Source: Labedaea rhizosphaerae
GTDB lineage: Bacteria; Actinomycetota; Actinomycetes; Mycobacteriales; Pseudonocardiaceae
Direction of reading: 5' to 3'
Assembly (NCBI RefSeq): GCF_004362825.1
Contig: NZ_SNXZ01000003.1
Location: 1 to 64,000, forward strand
DNA length: 64,000 nt
Made by a program: the position numbers and the translations under genes. Each line of letters opens with the position of its first letter. The stretch's first letter is position 1. Below, in pieces: positions 11,354 through 47,270 of the stretch. The notes beneath the pieces are model-generated. The model was not told the DNA's origin. It ran no database searches and worked only from the letters and a program-made list of their open reading frames with translations.

Positions 11354-11375
11354 ATCAACCGTCCATTCGGTCAGT
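11354..11375. promoter_or_regulatory. candidate PaaR operator between the thiolase and paaI
   Basis: ACCGTCCATTCGGTCAGT (11358-11375) with the flanking ATCA matches both ACCG and CGGTnAGT half-sites of the 22-bp PaaR motif I recall from Corynebacterium. It lies midway between the divergent thiolase and paaI-paaK-paaR starts, so one site could control both directions. Confidence 0.6.
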
Positions 11376-29801: not shown

Positions 29802-30020
29802 ATGACGTGGCAGGTGTCGGTGAGCGGCGAGCGGTGCATCGGCTCCGGCCTGTGCGCCGGAACCCGGCCGGATGCGTTCGTGCTGGACGGCGTGACCGCC
29901 GAACCGGTGAACGCCCAGGTCGAGCCGGACGAAGAGCTGCTCGACGTGGCGGATTCGTGTCCGGCGCTGGCCATCGAGGTCGTCGACGAGGCCGGTCAGG
30001 AGATCGGTCCACGGCCCTGA
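29802..30020 (+). CDS. 3Fe-4S ferredoxin (P450 partner)
   Basis: A 72-residue ferredoxin with three cluster cysteines, Cys12 and Cys18 (RCIGSGLC) and Cys53 (DSCPALAI), the pattern of the single-cluster ferredoxins that feed electrons to actinobacterial P450s. It is four bases after the P450 stop, hence co-transcribed. Confidence 0.92.
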   Translation: MTWQVSVSGERCIGSGLCAGTRPDAFVLDGVTAEPVNAQVEPDEELLDVADSCPALAIEVVDEAGQEIGPRP

Positions 30021-30194: not shown

Positions 30195-31310
30195 TCAATC
30201 CGTGCTGTGCATGATCACGCCGCGGATGTTCTTGCCGTCGCGCAGGTCCTGGTAGCCCTCGTTGACCTGGTCCAGGGTGTAGCGCTTGGTGACCAGTTCG
30301 TCGAGCTTCAACTGGCCCGCGTCGTACATGCGCAGCAGGCGCAGGATGTCGTACTGCGGGTTGGCCGAACCGAACAGCGTGCCCTTGATCGTCTTGCCGA
30401 ACAGCGTCAGCAGCGCACCGGACACGTGCACGGTCAGCTTCTCCGGGTTGGCCAAGCCGGTCACCACGACCGTGCCGCCCTTGCCGACGGCGTTGAACGC
30501 GGCGCTCACCACGTCCTCGTCGACGATGCCGACGGTCACCAGCGCCTGGTCGGCCATCTGGCCCCAGGTCAGCTCCTCGATCTTCGCGTGCGCCTCCTCG
30601 GCGGTGGCGAACGCGTGCGTCGCACCGAACTCCAACGCCGTCTCGCGCTTGAACTCGACCGGGTCGACGGCCACCACGTGCCGGGCGCCGGCGTGCGCCG
30701 CGCCCTGGATGGAGTTGATGCCGATGCCACCGATCCCGTACACGACAACGGAATCACCCGCGCGCACCCCACCGGCGTACACGGCGCTGCCCCAGCCGGT
30801 CGGCACGCCGCAGCCCACGAGCACCGCGGTCTCCAGCGGTAGCCAGTCGTCCACCTTGACCACCGAGTGCTGCGAAATCGTTGCCCGCTCGGCGAAGGTG
30901 CCGATCATGCACATCGCGCCGAAGTCCTGGCCGCCGGCGTGGAAGCGGGTCGAGCCGTCGGGGAACGTGCCCTCGAGGATCGTGGCGCCCATGTCGCACA
31001 GGCTCTGCCTGCCCGTCGAGCAGTAGCGGCACACACCGCAGTTCGGGATGAAGCTGCACACCACGTGGTCGCCCGGCTTGACCTTCGTGACGCCGGGTCC
31101 GACGTCCTCGATGACGCCCGCGCCCTCGTGGCCGCCGACGATCGGGAAGCGCGGCACCAGGTCACCATCGGTCAGGTGCAGGTCGGAGTGGCACAGGCCC
31201 GCCGCGGTGTACTTGATCAACACCTCGCCCGGCCCCGGCCCGTCCAGGTCCAGTTCGAGCAACTCGAAGGGTTTTCCCGCCTCGTAGAGCACCGCTGCCT
31301 TGGTCTTCAC
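30195..31310 (-). CDS. NDMA-dependent (mycofactocin-linked) alcohol dehydrogenase
   Basis: A 371-residue zinc alcohol dehydrogenase of the class that keeps its NAD bound and hands electrons to an external acceptor, assayed with NDMA and in vivo linked to mycofactocin. Seen: catalytic zinc region GLCHSDLHLTDGD and GGHEGAGVIEDVGPGV, structural zinc cysteines (NCGVCRYCSTGRQSLC), nucleotide fold GIGGIGINSIQGA, and the subclass-typical DFGAMCMIGTFAERATI insertion. The GTG at 31310 is five bases from GAGGAG. Its neighbours (MftM-like methyltransferase, MnoSR-like system, iron alcohol dehydrogenase) support an alcohol-oxidation role. No mft biosynthesis genes lie in the window. Confidence 0.85.
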   Translation of the reverse strand: MKTKAAVLYEAGKPFELLELDLDGPGPGEVLIKYTAAGLCHSDLHLTDGDLVPRFPIVGGHEGAGVIEDVGPGVTKVKPGDHVVCSFIPNCGVCRYCSTGRQSLCDMGATILEGTFPDGSTRFHAGGQDFGAMCMIGTFAERATISQHSVVKVDDWLPLETAVLVGCGVPTGWGSAVYAGGVRAGDSVVVYGIGGIGINSIQGAAHAGARHVVAVDPVEFKRETALEFGATHAFATAEEAHAKIEELTWGQMADQALVTVGIVDEDVVSAAFNAVGKGGTVVVTGLANPEKLTVHVSGALLTLFGKTIKGTLFGSANPQYDILRLLRMYDAGQLKLDELVTKRYTLDQVNEGYQDLRDGKNIRGVIMHSTD

Positions 31311-31439
31311 AATCACTCCTCGGTGAGTCCTTGCGTGGTGTGACCTGGCTCCCATCCCCACTGTGCAATACGCGACCGGGCGGCGGACCTGCCCGAATGG
31401 GCGGTTGCCTGCGGCGCCGGCACCGGAAAACTGGTCACC

Positions 31440-32291
31440 ATGACCGGCGCCCGGCTGCCTGTCGCCGACATCGACCCGCTCGCTGCGACCCCACGCGGCC
31501 GCTACGAGGACGAGCGGGTGACCGTGTGCCGTGGCAGGCCGGTCGGCCCGACCACGCTGCGCACGGCGCACTTCGGGCTGCGCCGCGTGGGTCGCCGGGT
31601 CGAGCTGACCCACGACCTGCACGTGAGCGAACTCGACAACGACCTCGCCGAACTGCTCGAGACCGAGTTGTTCGCGCCGGGCTGGCTCGCCGGGGTCGAC
31701 CTGTTCGAACGGCTCTTCACCGGCGTCGTCATGTCCACTATGGACGACCCGGCGCAGGCGTGGGCCCACTTCTACCGCAACACCATGACCCGGATCGCCG
31801 CGACGCGGCCGGTCTACCAGCGCGCGATGGAGCTGATCGGGCCCGGCCACGTGCTGGATGTCAACGCCTGCTTCGGTTTCCTCGCGCTACGCCTGGCCGC
31901 CCGGCCCCGCACGACGGTCATCGCCACCGACGGGTCACCGGGCAGCATGCGCCTGCTCGACCGGATGGCCGGGCTGTTCGGCACGCCGGTCCGCACGCTG
32001 ATCTGCGACCCCGCCCGGGTGCCGCTGCCCGACGACGCCGTCGACACCGTCAGCCTCGTGCACGTGCTCGAACACCTCGAACCCGAGCACGGTGCGGCCG
32101 TCGTGTCGGAAGCGGTTCGCCTGGCACGCAAGCGGATCGTCGTCGCGGTGCCGATCGAGGAGCAGCCCAACGCCGCCTACGGGCACCTGCGCACGTTCAC
32201 CCTCGACGACCTCGACCGGCTCGGTGCGGCCACCGGCCTGCGCCACCGAACCGAGGAATACCACAGCGGCTGGCTGACCCTCGACCGCTAG
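31440..32291 (+). CDS. mftM: SAM-dependent methyltransferase, probable mycofactocin oligosaccharide methyltransferase MftM
   Basis: A 283-residue class I methyltransferase: SAM-binding motif I HVLDVNACFGFLALRLA (a Cys/Phe variant of the Gly-rich loop), an acidic end of strand 2 (VIATDGS) and the DTVSLVHVLEHLEPE motif. The first 110 residues form a separate domain that begins RGRYEDERVTVCRGRP and precedes the fold. The order with respect to a response regulator, histidine kinase and iron alcohol dehydrogenase matches what I recall around mftM in Mycolicibacterium smegmatis, where MftM methylates the sugar chain of mycofactocin. The function is inferred mainly from synteny. Confidence 0.6.
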   Translation: MTGARLPVADIDPLAATPRGRYEDERVTVCRGRPVGPTTLRTAHFGLRRVGRRVELTHDLHVSELDNDLAELLETELFAPGWLAGVDLFERLFTGVVMSTMDDPAQAWAHFYRNTMTRIAATRPVYQRAMELIGPGHVLDVNACFGFLALRLAARPRTTVIATDGSPGSMRLLDRMAGLFGTPVRTLICDPARVPLPDDAVDTVSLVHVLEHLEPEHGAAVVSEAVRLARKRIVVAVPIEEQPNAAYGHLRTFTLDDLDRLGAATGLRHRTEEYHSGWLTLDR

Positions 32292-32965
32292 ATCATGCCC
32301 AGCTTGGACGCTTCGTAGACGGCCTCCGCCCGGCTGGACGCGCCGAGCTTGCGCATGATGTTGCGCACGTGGAACTTCACGGTGGTCTCGGAGATGTACA
32401 TCCGGCCGCCGATGTCCTTGTTGGACATCCCGTGGGCCAGCAGCACCAGCACGCCCTGCTCGCGTTCGGTGAGCGCGACCTCGGCCTGGGTGTTGATCGA
32501 GTGCACCATGGCGGCGGCCGACCGGGAGTCGAACGCGCTTTCCTTGCGTGCCACCGCCCTTATCGAGCGGATCAGCTCCGTGGTGTCCACGTCCTTGACC
32601 ACGTAACCGCGCGCTCCGTTGTGGATCGCGTCCACCACGAGCTTGCCGTCGAGGAACGTCGTCAGCACCAGCACGCCCAGATCCGGGTGCTGCTTGGTGA
32701 GTTCGGCGCACAACGCGAGGCCCTCGTGGTCGTTCCCGGTGGAGAGCTTGAGATCCAGCAGCACCACGGTGGGCATCGTGCGCTGCACGACGGCGAGTGC
32801 TTCGGACGCGGTGGACGCCTCACCCACCACCGCGAGGTCGCGTTCGCGTTCCAGGATCGAGCGCAAGCCCTGCCGGACGATCGCGTGGTCGTCGACCAGC
32901 ACGATCCGCACCTCGCTCGAGAGCCGGTCGCCCCGCGGGGCGACCGAGCCATCCGCACGGTTCAC
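32288..32965 (-). CDS. NarL/LuxR-type response regulator (MnoR-like)
   Basis: A 225-residue response regulator: receiver domain with acidic pocket (VLVDDHAIVRQGL) and phosphoacceptor in VVLLDLKLSTG, then a LuxR-type helix-turn-helix (LTEREQGVLVLLAHGMSNKDIGGRMYISE, given in part). It pairs with the kinase that overlaps it by four bases (GTGA). By gene order it corresponds to MnoR of M. smegmatis, reported to control methanol/propanediol oxidation. Likely targets are the two alcohol dehydrogenases. It overlaps the convergent mftM end by four bases. Confidence 0.85.
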   Translation of the reverse strand: MNRADGSVAPRGDRLSSEVRIVLVDDHAIVRQGLRSILERERDLAVVGEASTASEALAVVQRTMPTVVLLDLKLSTGNDHEGLALCAELTKQHPDLGVLVLTTFLDGKLVVDAIHNGARGYVVKDVDTTELIRSIRAVARKESAFDSRSAAAMVHSINTQAEVALTEREQGVLVLLAHGMSNKDIGGRMYISETTVKFHVRNIMRKLGASSRAEAVYEASKLGMI

Positions 32966-34437
32966 GAAACCTCCTCGGCCGGCTCTTCCGCTTGCGGCAT
33001 GGGCACTTCCACCCGGATCTCGACGCCACCGAGCCGGGCCCGCCGGATGGTGAGGGTGCCACCGAGGCTCGTCGCGCGCTCGGCCATGTTGGCCAGGCCC
33101 CGGTGCTTGCCGTCGAGGTCGGCGGCGCTGGTGACCCGCAACTTCTGGCGCATCTGCACCGGATCGCCGTGCCCGTCATCAGCGATGCTCATCGACACCG
33201 TGCTCGCCGTGTAACGCAGCCGGACCACGGCGCGCGTGGCGCCCGCGTGGGCGACGACGTTGAACAACGCCTCCCCCGCGATCCGCAGCATCGCGTGCTC
33301 CGCGCGCAGGGGCAGCGGCCTCGGCGTGCCCGCCACCCGGACCTGGACGTCGACGTCACCGGGCGCGTGCACGCTGGAGAGCTGGCGCAGCAGGTCGTGC
33401 AGCGAGCCCGAGGAATCGTCGGCCGCGCGGTGCAGGGAGTAGATGGACGCGCGCAGCTGTTCGACCGCATGGCGCGTCATGTCCTTGGCGCCGGCCAGGC
33501 GCCGCACGACGTCCTCGGTCCGCTCACCCAGTTCGGCCAGCTCGGCGCGGCACACCTCGATGGTCATGCCCGCGGACAGGACGTACTGCGTCACGCTGTC
33601 GTGCAGTTCGCGCGCGATCCGGTGCCGCTCGTCGGTCAACGCCTGGCGCTGCATGGCCTCCATCAACCGGCGCTGGGTCTGCTGCAGCTCGGCGCTGCGC
33701 ACCGCGAGGTCCTTGGCCTGGCGCGCGGTCTCCTGCGAGAGCTGCACGGTCCGACCGCGGAGCTGGGTCGTGGCGTGCAGGAGGTGCGAGTTGTAGAGCG
33801 CCACCGCGGCCTGGTTGGCCAGCACCCGCAGCACCGCGAGGTCGGTCGGGTCGAGCAGGACGTCCGCACCCGGCCAGCCGACGATCCCGCCGACCGGCTC
33901 GCCGTCGAGGATCATCGGCGCGCGCACCCACCCCGGTCCCCGCGACAGCAACTCGGTCTCCCACGGCCGCGACCGCACGACCTCGAGCTGCTCGACCACC
34001 TCGGGCGGCAGCTCCCGCTCCTGGTCGACGAACCGGCCGTGGTCGATCAGCAAGAACCCCGGTCGCACCCCCCGCAACGCACCGTCGGCGACCGCAAGCA
34101 GCAGCCGGTCGGACTGCAGGTGATCGGCCGCGGCCGCGACGACCTCCTCGACCAGCGCACGCGGGCCTTCCACGTTGCGCACCAACGCACGCGAGATCCC
34201 GTCGAGCGCCTGCACGGCGCTGGTCAGCCGCTCGGTGGAGCGCACGTACTCGCGGTAGAACGTCCGCTTGCCGGACCGGACCCCGGTCAGCCACCCAAGA
34301 TCAGCAGCTTGGCGGTCCGCCTCGCCGGGGTCATGTTCGCCGGCCAGGTTGGGCGGGGCCGGTGCGGGCTGGGTGGCTTCGCGTTCCCCTGAGGTGGGGC
34401 CGACCGCCCCACCGGTCGACCCGAGCCCCCGGCTCAT
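32962..34437 (-). CDS. GAF-domain sensor histidine kinase (MnoS-like)
   Basis: A cytosolic sensor kinase of 491 residues with no transmembrane helix: a GAF-type sensor (about residues 75-215), a coiled coil, a HisKA_3 dimerisation/phosphoacceptor segment (RHRIARELHDSVTQYVLSAG) and a HATPase_c domain (about 365-480). It would sense an intracellular ligand, perhaps an alcohol or aldehyde. The ATG overlaps the iron alcohol dehydrogenase stop as ATGA. Odd: residues 10-40 are the in-frame translation of a dispersed DNA repeat (copy B), so the extreme N-terminus looks like an inserted, possibly dispensable tail. Confidence 0.87.
   Translation of the reverse strand: MSRGLGSTGGAVGPTSGEREATQPAPAPPNLAGEHDPGEADRQAADLGWLTGVRSGKRTFYREYVRSTERLTSAVQALDGISRALVRNVEGPRALVEEVVAAAADHLQSDRLLLAVADGALRGVRPGFLLIDHGRFVDQERELPPEVVEQLEVVRSRPWETELLSRGPGWVRAPMILDGEPVGGIVGWPGADVLLDPTDLAVLRVLANQAAVALYNSHLLHATTQLRGRTVQLSQETARQAKDLAVRSAELQQTQRRLMEAMQRQALTDERHRIARELHDSVTQYVLSAGMTIEVCRAELAELGERTEDVVRRLAGAKDMTRHAVEQLRASIYSLHRAADDSSGSLHDLLRQLSSVHAPGDVDVQVRVAGTPRPLPLRAEHAMLRIAGEALFNVVAHAGATRAVVRLRYTASTVSMSIADDGHGDPVQMRQKLRVTSAADLDGKHRGLANMAERATSLGGTLTIRRARLGGVEIRVEVPMPQAEEPAEEVS
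34318..34410 (-). repeat. dispersed repeat copy B, inside the kinase N-terminus
   Basis: On the minus strand the blocks CCACCTCAGGGGAACG, CAGCC, then GGCGAGGCGGAC follow the same order as in the paaZ-paaA spacer (copy A). Here the repeat is read as protein within the histidine kinase (GPTSGEREATQP). Confidence 0.5.
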
Positions 34438-35642
34438 AGCGCCGCGCGCAGGAGGGCTTCGATGTCCGCCGCGCTCGCGTCTCGGGGATTCGTTTCCAGG
34501 CAGGCGTCGTGCAGGGTGGTGCGGGCCAGGTGCGCGATGTTCAGCTCGCTGACCCCGAGGTGGGCCAGGCCCTTCGGCACGCCGACCGCGTCGGCCAGCT
34601 CACGCACCCGCGTCGCCAGCCGTTCGGCCACCTCCTGCGCGGGCATCCGGTCGACCGCGATCCCCGCGGCGGCGGCGATCGGCACGTAGCGCTCGGGGTC
34701 CTCGGCGGCGTTGAACCGGATCACGTGCGGCAGCAGCACGCCGTTGATCACCCCGTGCGGCGCGTCGAGCAGGCCGCCGACCTGGTGGCTGATCGCGTGC
34801 GTGGCGCCGAGGATCGCGTTGGTGAACGCCATCCCGGCCTCGAGCGAACCCTGCGCCATCGCGATCCGCGGCTCGGTGGCCTCGGGCCGGCGCTGGGTGT
34901 CGAGCAGGTTGCCGGTGACGAGCCGGACCGCGTGCAACGCGTGCTGGTCGGTGAGGATGTTGTGCGCGCGGGAGACGAACGCCTCGATGGCGTGGGTGAG
35001 CGCGTCCAGGCCGGTCGCCGCGTTCAGCCAGTCCGGCATCGTGGTGAGCAGCCGCGGGTCGACCAGCGAGATGTCCGGGACCAGCGTGCGGCTGATGATG
35101 GTCACCTTGGTGGCGTTCGCGGTGTCGGTGACCACGCAGAACTGCGACACGTCGGCGCCGGTGCCGGACGTCGCGGGCACCATCACCAGTGGCGGGATCG
35201 GCCGCACCACCTTGTCGACGCCCTCGAAGCCGAGGATCCGCCCGCCGTTGCCCGACAGGATCGCCACGCCCTTGGCCGCGTCGATGCACGAGCCGCCGCC
35301 GACCGCGACGATCACGTCGGCTTCGCTGGCCCGGTAGTCGGCGAAGGCCTGCTCGATCTCGTGGTCCTTGGGGTTGGGCGTGAGGTCGTGCCAGAGCACC
35401 GGGTGCAGGCCGGCGTCGCGCAAGTGTTTGCGTGCCTGGTCGGCCCAGCCCGCCTCGATGATGCCGGGGTCGGTGACCAGGAATGGCTTGCGCGCACCGA
35501 CGCGCGCCGCCGCGTGCCCGAGTTCGGCCAGCGAATGCGGACCGAAGACGATCTCCGGGACGTGGAACTTGGCCAGCGTGGGTGGCGTCGCCCGCGACTG
35601 GCGCTCGGCCGGGCGTTCGCGAACGGGGAGCGGCTCGACCAT
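34434..35642 (-). CDS. iron-containing alcohol dehydrogenase
   Basis: A group III alcohol dehydrogenase of 402 residues that oxidises short-chain alcohols or diols with NAD(P). It shows the nucleotide-binding GGGSCIDAAKG, a PATSGTGAD stretch, and metal-ligand histidines in THAISHQVGGLLDAPHGVINGVLLPHV (read in parts). First gene of an operon iron-ADH, kinase, response regulator, joined by ATGA and GTGA overlaps. In M. smegmatis an iron-type 1,3-propanediol dehydrogenase occupies the same place. The ATG is at 35642, with GGAAGGG upstream; a GTG one codon earlier is possible. Confidence 0.88.
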   Translation of the reverse strand: MVEPLPVRERPAERQSRATPPTLAKFHVPEIVFGPHSLAELGHAAARVGARKPFLVTDPGIIEAGWADQARKHLRDAGLHPVLWHDLTPNPKDHEIEQAFADYRASEADVIVAVGGGSCIDAAKGVAILSGNGGRILGFEGVDKVVRPIPPLVMVPATSGTGADVSQFCVVTDTANATKVTIISRTLVPDISLVDPRLLTTMPDWLNAATGLDALTHAIEAFVSRAHNILTDQHALHAVRLVTGNLLDTQRRPEATEPRIAMAQGSLEAGMAFTNAILGATHAISHQVGGLLDAPHGVINGVLLPHVIRFNAAEDPERYVPIAAAAGIAVDRMPAQEVAERLATRVRELADAVGVPKGLAHLGVSELNIAHLARTTLHDACLETNPRDASAADIEALLRAAL

Positions 35643-35763: not shown

Positions 35764-35779
35764 CTGTCCATTTGGACAG
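35764..35779. promoter_or_regulatory. perfect 16-bp palindrome CTGTCCA-TT-TGGACAG
   Basis: Seven-base arms around TT lie in the 212-base divergent region between the iron alcohol dehydrogenase operon and the BTAD regulator gene. It is the obvious operator candidate, for the response regulator or the BTAD protein. Confidence 0.5.
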
Positions 35780-38632: not shown

Positions 38633-41200
38633 TCAGGCCAGCGGCAGCAGGCGCTTCTGCCACACGCCGTCGTTGGCCAGCGCGGTCTGCCGCCGCTCCG
38701 GCGACACCACGCCGTAGGTCGTCGTGCGCTGGCGGGACGGACGACCGGCGGCGGACGCCAGCCCCTCCAGGTCGGCGATGGTCTTGTAGGAACCGTTGGA
38801 CGAGCCGGCCATCCGGCTGATGGTCTCCTCCATCAGCGTCCCGCCGAGGTCGTTCACCCCGCCACGCAACACATCCACGACGCCGGGATCCCCCAGCTTC
38901 ACCCAGCTGGTCTGGATGTTGTCGATCGCGCCGTGCAACAGCAGCCGTGCCAGCGCGTGCACGGCCCGGTTCTCCCGCGCGGTCGGGCCCGGGCGGGCCA
39001 GCCCGGCCAGGTAGATCGGCGAGTTGGTGTGCACGAACGGCAGCAGCACGAACTCGGTGAACCCGCCGGTCCGGGATTGCAGGTCCCGCAACAACTTCAG
39101 ATGTGCGACCCAGTGCGCGGGCGTGTCGACGTGGCCGTACATCATCGTGGACGTTGACGGGATACCCAGCTCGTGCGCCGTGGTCACGACCTCGATCCAC
39201 GCGGCCGTCGGCAGCTTGCCCTTGGTGAGCACCCAGCGCACGTCGTCGTCGAGGATTTCCGCCGCGGTACCGGGGATCGAGTCGAGCCCGGCCTCGCGGG
39301 CGGCGATCAGCCACTCCCGGATGGACAGGTTCGCCCGCGACGCGCCGTTCACTACCTCCATCGGCGAGAACGCGTGCACGTGCATGTCCGGCGCGGCCTT
39401 CTTGACCGCCGCGGCGATGTCGAAGTACGCGCTGCCCGGCAGATCGGGGTGGATCCCGCCCTGCATGCAGACCTCGGTCGCGCCGGCCTGCCACGCCTGC
39501 TCGGCGCGCTGCGCGACCTGCTCCAGCGACAACGTGTACGCGTCGGCGTCCGTGCGCCGCTGGGCGAACGCGCAGAACCGGCAGCCGGTGTAGCAGACGT
39601 TGGTGAAGTTGATGTTGCGTGTGACCACGTAGGTCACCTCGTCGCCCACGGTGTCGCGGCGCACGGAGTCGGCGAGGGCGGCCAGGGCGGTCAGCTCCGC
39701 GCCCTCCTCGGCGTCGAGCAACGTCAACGCGTCCACATCGGACAGTCCACCCGGGTCGGCTTCGGCGTGGCGCAACGCCGTGGTGAACTCCGGGCGCAGC
39801 TTGTCGATCACCCCGGCGTTGCGGGTCGGCTGGTGGATCTGCGCGCGCAGCTCCGACCAGTCGCCGTAGACGGAGTCGAAGTCCGCGCGGCGATCGCTGG
39901 TGCGCCCGGCGGTGTCGATGCTCGTGTGCAGGTCGGTGCGCCCGGTCGCGGTGAGCGGGACCTCCGGCTCCTGCCAGGGCAGGCCCTTCGGGAGCACGTC
40001 ACGGGCCAGCCCGCTCTCGTCGGCCAGCGCGGCGACGTGACCGGCCACGCGCGGGTCGAGCCACGGCTCACCGCGGCGCACGTACTCGGGGTAGATGGTG
40101 AGCCGCTCGGCCAGCCGGAACCCGGCGTCGGCCGTGCGCTGGGCCAGCTCGTCGATCACCGGCCACGGCCGCTCGGGGTTCACGTGGTCGGGCGTGAGCG
40201 GGGAGACGCCACCCCAGTCGTCGATGCCGGCGTCGATCATCATCCGGAACTCGCCGTCGACGAGGTTCGGTGGTGCCTGCACGCGCATCTTCGGGCCGAG
40301 CAGCAGCCGCGCGACGGCGATGGTGGCGGCCAGCTCCTCGGCCTCGGCGTCGGGCATGGCGCGCATGGCCGTGTCCGGCTTGGCCCGGAAGTTCTGGACG
40401 ATGACCTCCTGGACGCCGCCGTACTGGCGGGCCACCTTGCGGATGGCGAGCAGCGAGTCGGCACGCTCGGCCAGGTTCTCCCCGATGCCGATCAGGATGC
40501 CGGTGGTGAACGGCACCGAGCTGCGCCCGGCGTCCTCGAGCACCCGCAGCCGGACCGCCGGTTCCTTGTCCGGTGACGCGTAGTGGGGCTGGCCGGGCTC
40601 GGACCACAGGCGCTCGGCGGTGGTCTCCAGCATCATGCCCATGGACGGGGCGACCGGCTTGAGCCGCTGGAAGTCCTGCCAGGTGAGCACGCCCGGGTTG
40701 AGGTGCGGGAGCAGGCCGGTCTCCTCGAGCACGCGGATGGCCATCGCGCGCACGTAGGACAGCGTGTCCGGGTAGCCGTGCGCCTCCAGCCACTCGCGCG
40801 CGGCCGGCCAGCGGTCCTCCGGGCGGTCGCCGAGGGTGAACAGCGCTTCCTTGCAGCCCAGCGCGGCACCCTGGCGGGCGATCTCGAGCACCTCGTCGGG
40901 GCTCAGGAACGCCGAGGGCACGCGGTGCGGCACGGTCGCGAACGTGCAGTAGTGGCAGCGGTCGCGGCACAGGCGGGTCAGCGGGATGAAGACCTTGCGC
41001 GAGTACGTGATCACCCCGGGCCGGCCGGCCTCGACCAGCCCGGCGTCGCGCACCCGCGCCGCGGCGGCGCTGAGCCGACCCAACTGGTCGCCGCGGGCGT
41101 GCAACAGGACCTCGGCCTCGACGGCGTCGAGGGTGACCCCGTCCTCGGCCCTGCGCAACGCGCGCCGAAGCGCGGACTCCGACGGACGCTCGATCGGCAC
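38633..41200 (-). CDS. fbiC: 7,8-didemethyl-8-hydroxy-5-deazariboflavin synthase FbiC
   Basis: FbiC builds the deazaflavin core of coenzyme F420 from tyrosine and a flavin precursor. The 855-residue protein is the actinobacterial fusion of CofG (N-terminal radical-SAM cluster CRDRCHYC near 76-83) and CofH (second cluster CYTGCRFC near 550). GTG start with a strong AGGAGG site. F420 implies deazaflavin-dependent oxidoreductases elsewhere; no other F420 gene is nearby. Confidence 0.95.
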
Positions 41201-46181: not shown

Positions 46182-47270
46182 CTACGCGCCCGCGTCCATC
46201 CGCACCAGGGTACGTGCTCCGTGTCCTGCGGACATCCGGTCGAAGGCGTCGTTGATCCCGTCCAGAGTGGTCTCGCCGGTGACCAGTGCGCTCAGGTCGA
46301 GCTCCCCTGCCGCAACGTGGTCGAGCAGCTTCGGAACGTCGACCTCGGGGTTGCTCGAGCCGAACAGGCAGCCCTGCAGGGTCCGGCCGAACCAGTACAG
46401 CTCCAGCGCACTGAACTCGACCGGCGCCTTGGCCGAGCCGACCCCGACGACCACCACGTCGCCCCCGCGCCGGCTCGCCGACCAGGCCAGCCGGATGGTC
46501 TCGGGGCGACCGACGCACTCGAAGGCGTGGTCGGCGCCGCGACCGCCGGTGGCGTTGCGCACCGCCTTGGCCGCGTCCTTGCCGGAGACCACGAAGTCGG
46601 TCGCACCGTGGGCGCGGGCCAGCTCCCGCTTCTCCTCGGAGACGTCCACCGCGACGATCGGTGCCGCGCCGACGATCCGGGCCGCCTGCAGCACCGAGAG
46701 CCCGATGCCGCCGACGCCGACCACGACGACGGACTGGCCGCGTCGGACCCCGGCCGTGTTGAACACCGCGCCGGCTCCGGTCAGCACCGCGCAGCCGAGC
46801 ACCGCGGCCCGGTCCAGCGGCACGTCCTCGGGGATCTTCACCGCGCCCCGCTCGGGCACGATCGTCTCCTCGGCGAACGCGCCCGCGCCCAGGGCCGGGT
46901 AGAGGTCGGCGCCGTCAAGTTTCGCGTAGGGCACGGCCGCCGCGTCCGATGCGTGCTCGCACAGCCACGGCTCGCCCTGCCCGCAGAACCAGCAGTCGCC
47001 GCAGGCGGGCGCCCAGTTCAGGATCACGTGGTCGCCGGGCGCCACCCGGGTCACGCCCTCGCCGACGGACGCGACGATCCCGGCACCCTCGTGCCCGAGC
47101 ACCGCGGGCACCGGCTGCTTGAGCGTGCCGTTGGCGAGCGACAGGTCGGAGTGGCACACGCCCGCGGCGACCATCCGCACCCGCACCTGGCCCGGACCGG
47201 GCTCCGGCAGGTCGATGTCGCGAACCTCCAGCGGCTTGCCCTGCTCCGTGAGAACCGCGGCCCTGACCAA
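46182..47270 (-). CDS. zinc-dependent alcohol dehydrogenase (MDR family)
   Basis: A 362-residue medium-chain dehydrogenase: catalytic zinc GVCHSDLSLANG and GHEGAGIVASVGEGV, structural-zinc cysteines in ACGDCWFCGQGEPWLC, and nucleotide motif GVGGIGLSVLQAA. The start is TTG at 47270, preceded by GGAG; no better codon fits. It follows two acyl-CoA dehydrogenase genes at close spacing, so it may oxidise an alcohol on the same catabolic route. It is distinct from the NDMA class at 30.2 kb, lacking that insert. Confidence 0.85.
   Translation of the reverse strand: MVRAAVLTEQGKPLEVRDIDLPEPGPGQVRVRMVAAGVCHSDLSLANGTLKQPVPAVLGHEGAGIVASVGEGVTRVAPGDHVILNWAPACGDCWFCGQGEPWLCEHASDAAAVPYAKLDGADLYPALGAGAFAEETIVPERGAVKIPEDVPLDRAAVLGCAVLTGAGAVFNTAGVRRGQSVVVVGVGGIGLSVLQAARIVGAAPIVAVDVSEEKRELARAHGATDFVVSGKDAAKAVRNATGGRGADHAFECVGRPETIRLAWSASRRGGDVVVVGVGSAKAPVEFSALELYWFGRTLQGCLFGSSNPEVDVPKLLDHVAAGELDLSALVTGETTLDGINDAFDRMSAGHGARTLVRMDAGA

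Follow-up and report, generated by a model that had tools for sequence, protein, structure and literature searches.

Here we describe a locus within a 64,000-nt stretch (hereafter the window) of Labedaea rhizosphaerae contig NZ_SNXZ01000003.1 (C3 of a 22-contig assembly), which codes for an NDMA-type zinc alcohol dehydrogenase (NDMA-ADH), the methyltransferase MftM, the response regulator MadR, the histidine kinase MadS and an iron alcohol dehydrogenase (FeADH), identities that are confirmed by their sequence families. With roughly even confidence, we propose that it represents an alcohol-responsive regulon, in which FeADH, MadS and MadR would constitute an alcohol-sensing module whose output is, in this organism, NDMA-ADH together with MftM. 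The genes for FeADH, MadS and MadR are arranged on the minus strand as in an operon, with 4-bp overlaps at both junctions, and mftM is convergent with madR (again with a 4-bp overlap) and divergent from the NDMA-ADH gene. MadS and MadR qualify as a two-component pair by the cut-offs of both their families (584 and 347 bits). A first-pass annotation, made from the sequence alone, had named the same five genes as a mycofactocin-associated alcohol-oxidation island. All five are indeed present together, four of them above NCBIfam cut-offs and FeADH above the Pfam iron-ADH cut-offs, and the depiction of an alcohol-oxidation locus tied to mycofactocin, with MftM and a pair resembling MnoSR, is borne out by MadS, MadR and MftM, each of which exceeds its cut-off.

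We read FeADH as a sensor because it is linked to the kinase and not to catabolic genes. The contextual information comes from 93 related loci, namely 17 (L034-L050) with matches spanning most of MadS among the 80 matches listed, and those of 80 of the 86 other MadS-bearing genomes of the family (G365, G367, G389, G396, G404 and G410 being outside the set), less four duplicates (L182, L193, L214 and L223). In 91 of these, madS is immediately preceded, on the same strand, by a FeADH match; the remaining two (L225 and L226) are cut by contig ends, and madR comes after madS in all 93. The FeADH match is split into two pieces in L194 and L222 and covers 73 residues only in L233 of genome G195 (L233:7627-8850), where it ends at residue 95 and the MadS match starts at 169; the two genes look truncated into each other, by either a deletion or an assembly error. 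Within the fetched stretches mftM was observed in 53 loci and Mno in 51. Mno is out of reach in 33 of the 93, with CoxE-like genes beside the module in 26 of them and an XdhC-like gene alone, about 7.6 kb off, in the other seven; the genomes of the Mno-less loci carry Mno elsewhere with the exception of G217, which has none (L040, L043 and L049 lay outside that comparison). The FeADH-madS linkage persists in four genomes that possess neither mftA, mftC nor Mno.

Further indications come from the affinities of FeADH itself, which, as in the ErcA-type signalling alcohol dehydrogenases, is encoded directly with a histidine kinase. Among 17 NCBIfam models its best match is the ErcA model (NF041833) at 464.7 bits, followed by lactaldehyde reductase at 314.2; six relatives score between 427 and 472 bits against the ErcA model, whose lead over the next-best model is 126 to 151 bits for each of the seven group members scored. 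In a tree in which long branches were flagged and Pseudomonas ErcA was not among the sequences, all 37 sampled FeADHs form one group with 100/100 support, apart from 13 of 13 Mno proteins and seven other iron ADHs. Together with the conserved linkage, this suggests that the main function of the cluster's iron ADH is to sense alcohol on behalf of the kinase with which it is paired. Three observations weigh against that proposal: FeADH passes none of the 17 cut-offs, including that of ErcA (550 bits); two Rhodococcus plasmids (L236:5923-8307 and L241:7959-10304) encode FeADH and MadR, but the stretches have no match to MadS; and the presumed metal ligands, NAD residues and GGGSxxD motif are invariant in 90 of 90 aligned FeADHs (L222 and L233, with short reading frames, were omitted), as would perhaps be expected of a plain enzyme. 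The metal and NAD positions are those presumed from FucO-type enzymes.

The invariance of these residues is at the heart of a competing explanation, namely that FeADH is a working catabolic dehydrogenase for 1,3-propanediol or short alcohols that is merely co-transcribed with madSR, with MadS sensing the alcohol alone. The relatives of solved structure with the highest scores are dehydrogenases that use NAD to oxidise methanol or 1,3-propanediol, and the M. smegmatis protein MSMEG_6239 is named a putative 1,3-propanediol dehydrogenase under MnoSR regulation in two papers (PMC11303327, PMC11778925). However, a sensor that reports its own turnover would retain an active site too, a loss of growth of mnoSR mutants on 1,3-propanediol would be compatible with both readings, and neither the constancy of the linkage to the kinase as against catabolic genes nor the lead of the ErcA model in every sequence scored is what a purely catabolic role predicts. 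We consider the catabolic explanation rather unlikely. The first-pass annotation had made of the iron ADH an enzyme of methanol/propanediol oxidation; a role in signalling, as the partner of MadS, seems more likely.

The kinase has features consistent with a cytoplasmic partner. MadS of the window is predicted to lack a membrane segment (hydropathy 1.31; the limit of 1.6 is passed by six relatives), and the phospho-histidine box is retained in 93 of 93 MadS sequences, the 94th (L042) being too short. A structure model (pLDDT 75, pTM 0.39) consists of an N-terminal domain, a long helix and a kinase core; the first appears GAF-like from the secondary structure of the model, and the last is DesK-like, with DesK and VraS among the PDB matches. 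Because the pTM is 0.39, no domain arrangement is claimed.

The mycofactocin genes are located elsewhere in the genome. Contig C6 carries mftA, mftR, mftC, two mycofactocin OYE enzymes, mft-ETF genes and mftF, as well as mftE and a mycofactocin-coupled SDR among the open reading frames (ORFs) scanned there, and an mftB recognised by eye alone; the genome thereby has mftA, mftC, mftE and mftF among the genes by which mycofactocin producers are recognised. No mft biosynthesis gene was encountered in the window itself, and the only match in the genome to each of mftA and mftC and the only mftF over the cut-off are all on C6, and the split between cofactor maker on C6 and cofactor users on C3 that had been anticipated is thus upheld. 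The expectation of mftA-F elsewhere in the genome holds for mftA, mftC, mftE and mftF; MftD (TIGR03966) has no match over the cut-off of 470.85 (the best single stretch gives 163 bits, with three candidate frames of two stretches each), a point that counts against our proposal. Given the C6 cluster, the genome is, MftD aside, largely not one devoid of mftA-F.

The comparison with M. smegmatis stands only in part: FeADH-madS-madR with mftM is shared, but the mno, madB and madC genes have no match in the window other than FeADH itself, and across the genome the sole match to Mno (TIGR04266, cut-off 625) is again the FeADH of the window at 154.6 bits. Accordingly, the locus does not have the combination that marks a mno/mad operon, that is, MadB and MadC next to the two-component pair, together with an Mno over 625 bits. 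The presence of mftA and MadS without Mno is rare in the family. Across 297 genomes, searched at E-values of 1e-90 for MadS, 1e-5 for mftA and 1e-100 for Mno, MadS occurs in 87, mftA in 140 and Mno in 81, and all 81 Mno genomes also carry MadS and mftA; Fisher values for the co-occurrence of MadS and Mno overstate independence because the genomes share ancestry. MadS is present without Mno in six genomes (that of the window, G175, G217, G239, G293 and G309), and of these only that of the window and G175 (86% complete) have mftA, the other four lacking mftA, mftC and Mno. Thus, in spite of the mft cluster and of MadS, MadR and MftM above their cut-offs, we find it quite improbable that this is a mycofactocin methanol/propanediol island of the usual M. 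smegmatis type, as first annotated, with Mno missing from both window and genome and no MoxR or VWA match of the mno-operon type in the window. Since Mno is lacking, methanol oxidation becomes the least safe prediction for the locus.

The place at mftM where many relatives carry mno genes is occupied here by NDMA-ADH, the only protein in the genome over the TIGR03989 cut-off (570 bits), which shares up to 81.8% identity with NDMA-ADHs encoded on plasmids in Rhodococcus and in mycobacteria. A long ORF (30195-31850) overstates its extent, as the family match starts at residue 182. A connection to the module is suggested by operator-like palindromes. At 12 bits or more, a palindrome resembling CTGTCCGATCGGACAG was found upstream of 43 of 49 Mno, 46 of 91 FeADH and five of 53 mftM genes (matches starting after residue 90 were dropped from the scan). 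The matrix was trained on the Mno, FeADH and mftM promoters that it scores, and the remaining groups and shuffled sequences therefore serve as controls; they gave no site upstream of madR (0/93), madS (0/90), MoxR (0/75) or VWA (0/46), and 0-0.4% in the shuffles. Both promoters of the window carry a site, 18.3 bits at 35764 and 14.6 bits at 31389. As one simulated 8.3 Mb sequence yields equally strong sites, the evidence lies in position rather than score, the chance of such a site being about 2e-4 for the 129-bp gap between NDMA-ADH and mftM.

Much in these data also tells against the regulon, beginning with the training of the matrix on promoters that it scores. The simulated sequence leads one to expect 13 sites at 14.6 bits and three at 18 bits by chance, and among 50 loose palindromes of the genome the 35764 site ranks 3rd and the 31389 site only 14th, with the strongest (23.2 bits) lying within an ORF elsewhere. 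About half of the FeADH promoters and most of the mftM promoters of relatives have no site, and among the 33 loci neighboured by cox-type genes, 30 have none of 15.5 bits; our guess is that mftM of the site-less relatives is read from the mno operon. The 31389 site may moreover serve mftM alone, as its Kibdelosporangium counterpart seems to. The frequent lack of sites at FeADH and mftM promoters and the rank of the 31389 site have slightly lowered our confidence in the regulon. Of eight other palindromes of the genome, six fall inside called ORFs, and none precedes a gene that visual inspection, without a family search, identified as an alcohol gene; a genome-wide operator search for the regulon was not decisive, chance matches being equally strong. 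The 20-kb stretch holding the mft cluster (L266) has no site of 13 bits or more; direct control of cofactor synthesis by MadR is for this reason unsupported. Elsewhere in the window, a 15.0-bit MadR-like palindrome (11359-11374) lies between divergent thiolase and thioesterase-family genes, near an AMP-ligase and a TetR gene; by analogy with phenylacetate regulators, it is probably the site of the adjoining TetR regulator.

The same weaknesses lend themselves to the alternative that NDMA-ADH is an unconnected neighbour at mftM under some other regulator, with the 31389 palindrome serving mftM alone or nothing. NDMA-ADHs elsewhere keep diverse company, occurring beside a helix-turn-helix protein and an aldehyde dehydrogenase in L274, an alkene monooxygenase in L235 and CoA-ligase genes in L273; three Kibdelosporangium loci have a similar site upstream of mftM without NDMA-ADH, and the 31389 site is weak by genome-wide rank. 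We nevertheless rate this alternative as unlikely: the site begins at a distance of 79 bp from the start codon of NDMA-ADH, a position with the low chance expectation given above, and, as the genome has neither Mno nor a second NDMA-ADH over the cut-off, MadSR would otherwise be left with no known output dehydrogenase. A sigma-70 consensus scan of the 31311-31439 gap found no promoter.

Among the 93 loci, within the fetched stretches, NDMA-ADH of at least 60% identity is found in one (L232, which retains Mno), and in none does it replace Mno at mftM. One further parallel to an NDMA-ADH near FeADH-MadS in the absence of Mno was encountered, on a plasmid of Mycolicibacterium chubuense NBB4 (L235), where NDMA-ADH (80% identity), FeADH (63%) and MadS (46%) occur within about 10 kb. 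This plasmid differs from the window in the presence of the alkene monooxygenase and of an adjoining second GAF-domain protein and regulator; its MadR match ends at residue 129, and it has no palindrome of 8 bits or more.

Three Kibdelosporangium loci (L036:6619-10966, L186 and L187) retain FeADH-madS-madR-mftM in genomes without mftA, mftC or Mno. The ratio of nonsynonymous to synonymous substitution rates (dN/dS) of FeADH, MadS, MadR and MftM is 0.12-0.32 for the two wider comparisons; for the closest pair, with few changes counted, it is 0.23-0.37. All three loci have a palindrome ahead of mftM, at 15.8 to 22.4 bits, and the MftM score for L036 is 311.6 bits. Because the module and MftM are kept with low dN/dS in the absence of mftA and mftC, MftM may have a role independent of self-made mycofactocin: either it has another substrate, or a compound related to the cofactor is imported or produced by these strains. 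Kibdelosporangium and mycofactocin were paired in no paper of the searched library. More tentatively than for the regulon, we propose that FeADH-MadS-MadR is a portable, mycofactocin-independent sensing module with an ErcA-like receptor, into which varied outputs could be plugged: Mno with its MoxR/VWA partners, NDMA-ADH here, and perhaps cox-type genes elsewhere. In the G217 locus (L179:692-16795), FeADH-madSR adjoins genes resembling MoxR, CoxE and XdhC, and position 1438 carries a MadR-type palindrome of 19.6 bits, within a called ORF but upstream of a putative small 2Fe-2S subunit that by eye resembles one of a CO dehydrogenase type enzyme. Outside the family, genome G023 (another family of the same class, 80% complete, with no mftC match) encodes a kinase resembling MadS (32%) together with a distantly related FeADH (51%), with a palindrome of 16.7 bits upstream (L009:260-2745).

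Among characterized systems, the M. smegmatis mno/mdo operon with MnoSR resembles the locus in its FeADH-kinase-regulator operon and convergent mftM, with kinase, regulator and MftM over the cut-offs. Its order, taken from L048 and a Tsukamurella plasmid, is mno, moxR (MadB-like) and VWA (MadC-like) with FeADH-madS-madR and mftM; the MoxR ATPase of relatives scores 378 bits against the MadB model NF047784 (cut-off 475), and the VWA protein 257 bits against the MadC model NF047783 (cut-off 600). In contrast, the window has no mno, madB or madC, has NDMA-ADH at mftM, and has palindromes before both promoters, whereas in M. smegmatis a single MnoR site, upstream of mno, is reported (PMC11303327). 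The palindromes of the window are putative, operator-like sites of the MadR/MnoR type as defined by the matrix from relatives, not by the published MnoR sequence. In Pseudomonas, ercA/yiaY is described as co-cistronic with a histidine kinase, loss of either repressing the ped alcohol cluster, and mutation of an NAD(P)-interacting histidine of YiaY as impairing induction (PMC12997753; PMC7427536); the mechanism of ErcA-type sensing is termed unresolved in the former (PMC12997753). The ErcA-ErcS and YiaY-PP_2683 pairs thus share with FeADH-MadS an iron ADH encoded with a histidine kinase, acting upstream of cofactor-dependent alcohol oxidation (PMC12997753). The Pseudomonas kinase is of the hybrid type and is predicted to sit at the cytoplasmic membrane, with a pyrroloquinoline quinone (PQQ)-dependent output, whereas MadS of the window, a HisKA_3 kinase, looks soluble and has a NarL-type regulator of its own, the cofactor is mycofactocin, and FeADH is under the ErcA cut-off.

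The features of the locus are collected in the table. A P450 (28601-29797, plus strand) and a ferredoxin (29802-30020, plus strand) lie tail-to-tail with NDMA-ADH and had been suggested as a possible source of the alcohols; this pair was rejected as part of the system, since it is not conserved with the module, with P450 matches (29% identity each) in three and ferredoxin matches in none of the 93 loci at an E-value of 1e-8. A fused CofGH (FO synthase of the F420 pathway; 38633-41200, 1513.9 bits against a cut-off of 1018) lies 3 kb from the locus, and a second zinc ADH (46182-47270) scores 324 bits as NDMA-ADH and 316 as S-(hydroxymethyl)mycothiol dehydrogenase, under the cut-offs of both models.

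Table. Features of the FeADH-madS-madR/mftM/NDMA-ADH locus in the window
Feature	Position	Strand	Evidence
NDMA-ADH, nicotinoprotein zinc alcohol dehydrogenase, GTG start	30195..31310	-	TIGR03989, 570 bits (cut-off 440)
Divergent promoter region, NDMA-ADH/mftM	31311..31439	.	sequence
Putative MadR/MnoR-type operator-like palindrome CTGCCCGAATGGGCGG (CTGCCC-GAAT-GGGCGG)	31389..31404	.	14.6 bits, relatives' promoter matrix
mftM, mycofactocin oligosaccharide methyltransferase family	31440..32291	+	NF041255, 303 bits (cut-off 200)
madR (mnoR-like), NarL/LuxR-type response regulator	32288..32965	-	NF047785, 347 bits (cut-off 300)
madS (mnoS-like) histidine kinase	32962..34437	-	NF047786, 584 bits (cut-off 500); HisKA_3 + HATPase
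FeADH, ErcA-like iron alcohol dehydrogenase, proposed MadS sensor partner	34434..35642	-	Pfam iron-ADH cut-offs passed
Perfect palindrome CTGTCCATTTGGACAG, putative MadR-type operator-like site, ~120 bp upstream of FeADH-madS-madR	35764..35779	.	18.3 bits

In light of these observations we posit the following scenario for the regulon. A short alcohol, or its aldehyde, would be met in the cytoplasm by FeADH, which through binding or NAD-linked turnover would alter the soluble-looking MadS. MadS would phosphorylate MadR, which may bind palindromes of the CTGTCC-GATC-GGACAG type and raise expression of the operon that encodes it as well as of NDMA-ADH and mftM from their divergent promoter. The alcohol would be oxidised by NDMA-ADH, the electrons presumably passing to mycofactocin supplied by the mft cluster elsewhere, with MftM methylating the sugar chain of the cofactor. 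Mno and its MoxR/VWA partners would have been lost from the locus in this lineage rather than never present, with NDMA-ADH taking over as the output enzyme; the nature of its substrate as a short alcohol is part of the same conjecture. In the literature on MadR/MadS, mycofactocin and MSMEG_6239, no title or abstract opening among the matches listed proposes the iron ADH as a regulator, which is weak evidence of novelty, subscription papers being mostly outside that set. If FeADH does signal to MadS, ErcA-type alcohol sensing would become directly testable in this compact set of three genes, whose kinase looks soluble and has a regulator of its own, and the iron ADH of the M. smegmatis mno operon may likewise be a regulator. 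MadSR alone, in any case, provides no basis for predicting methanol use.

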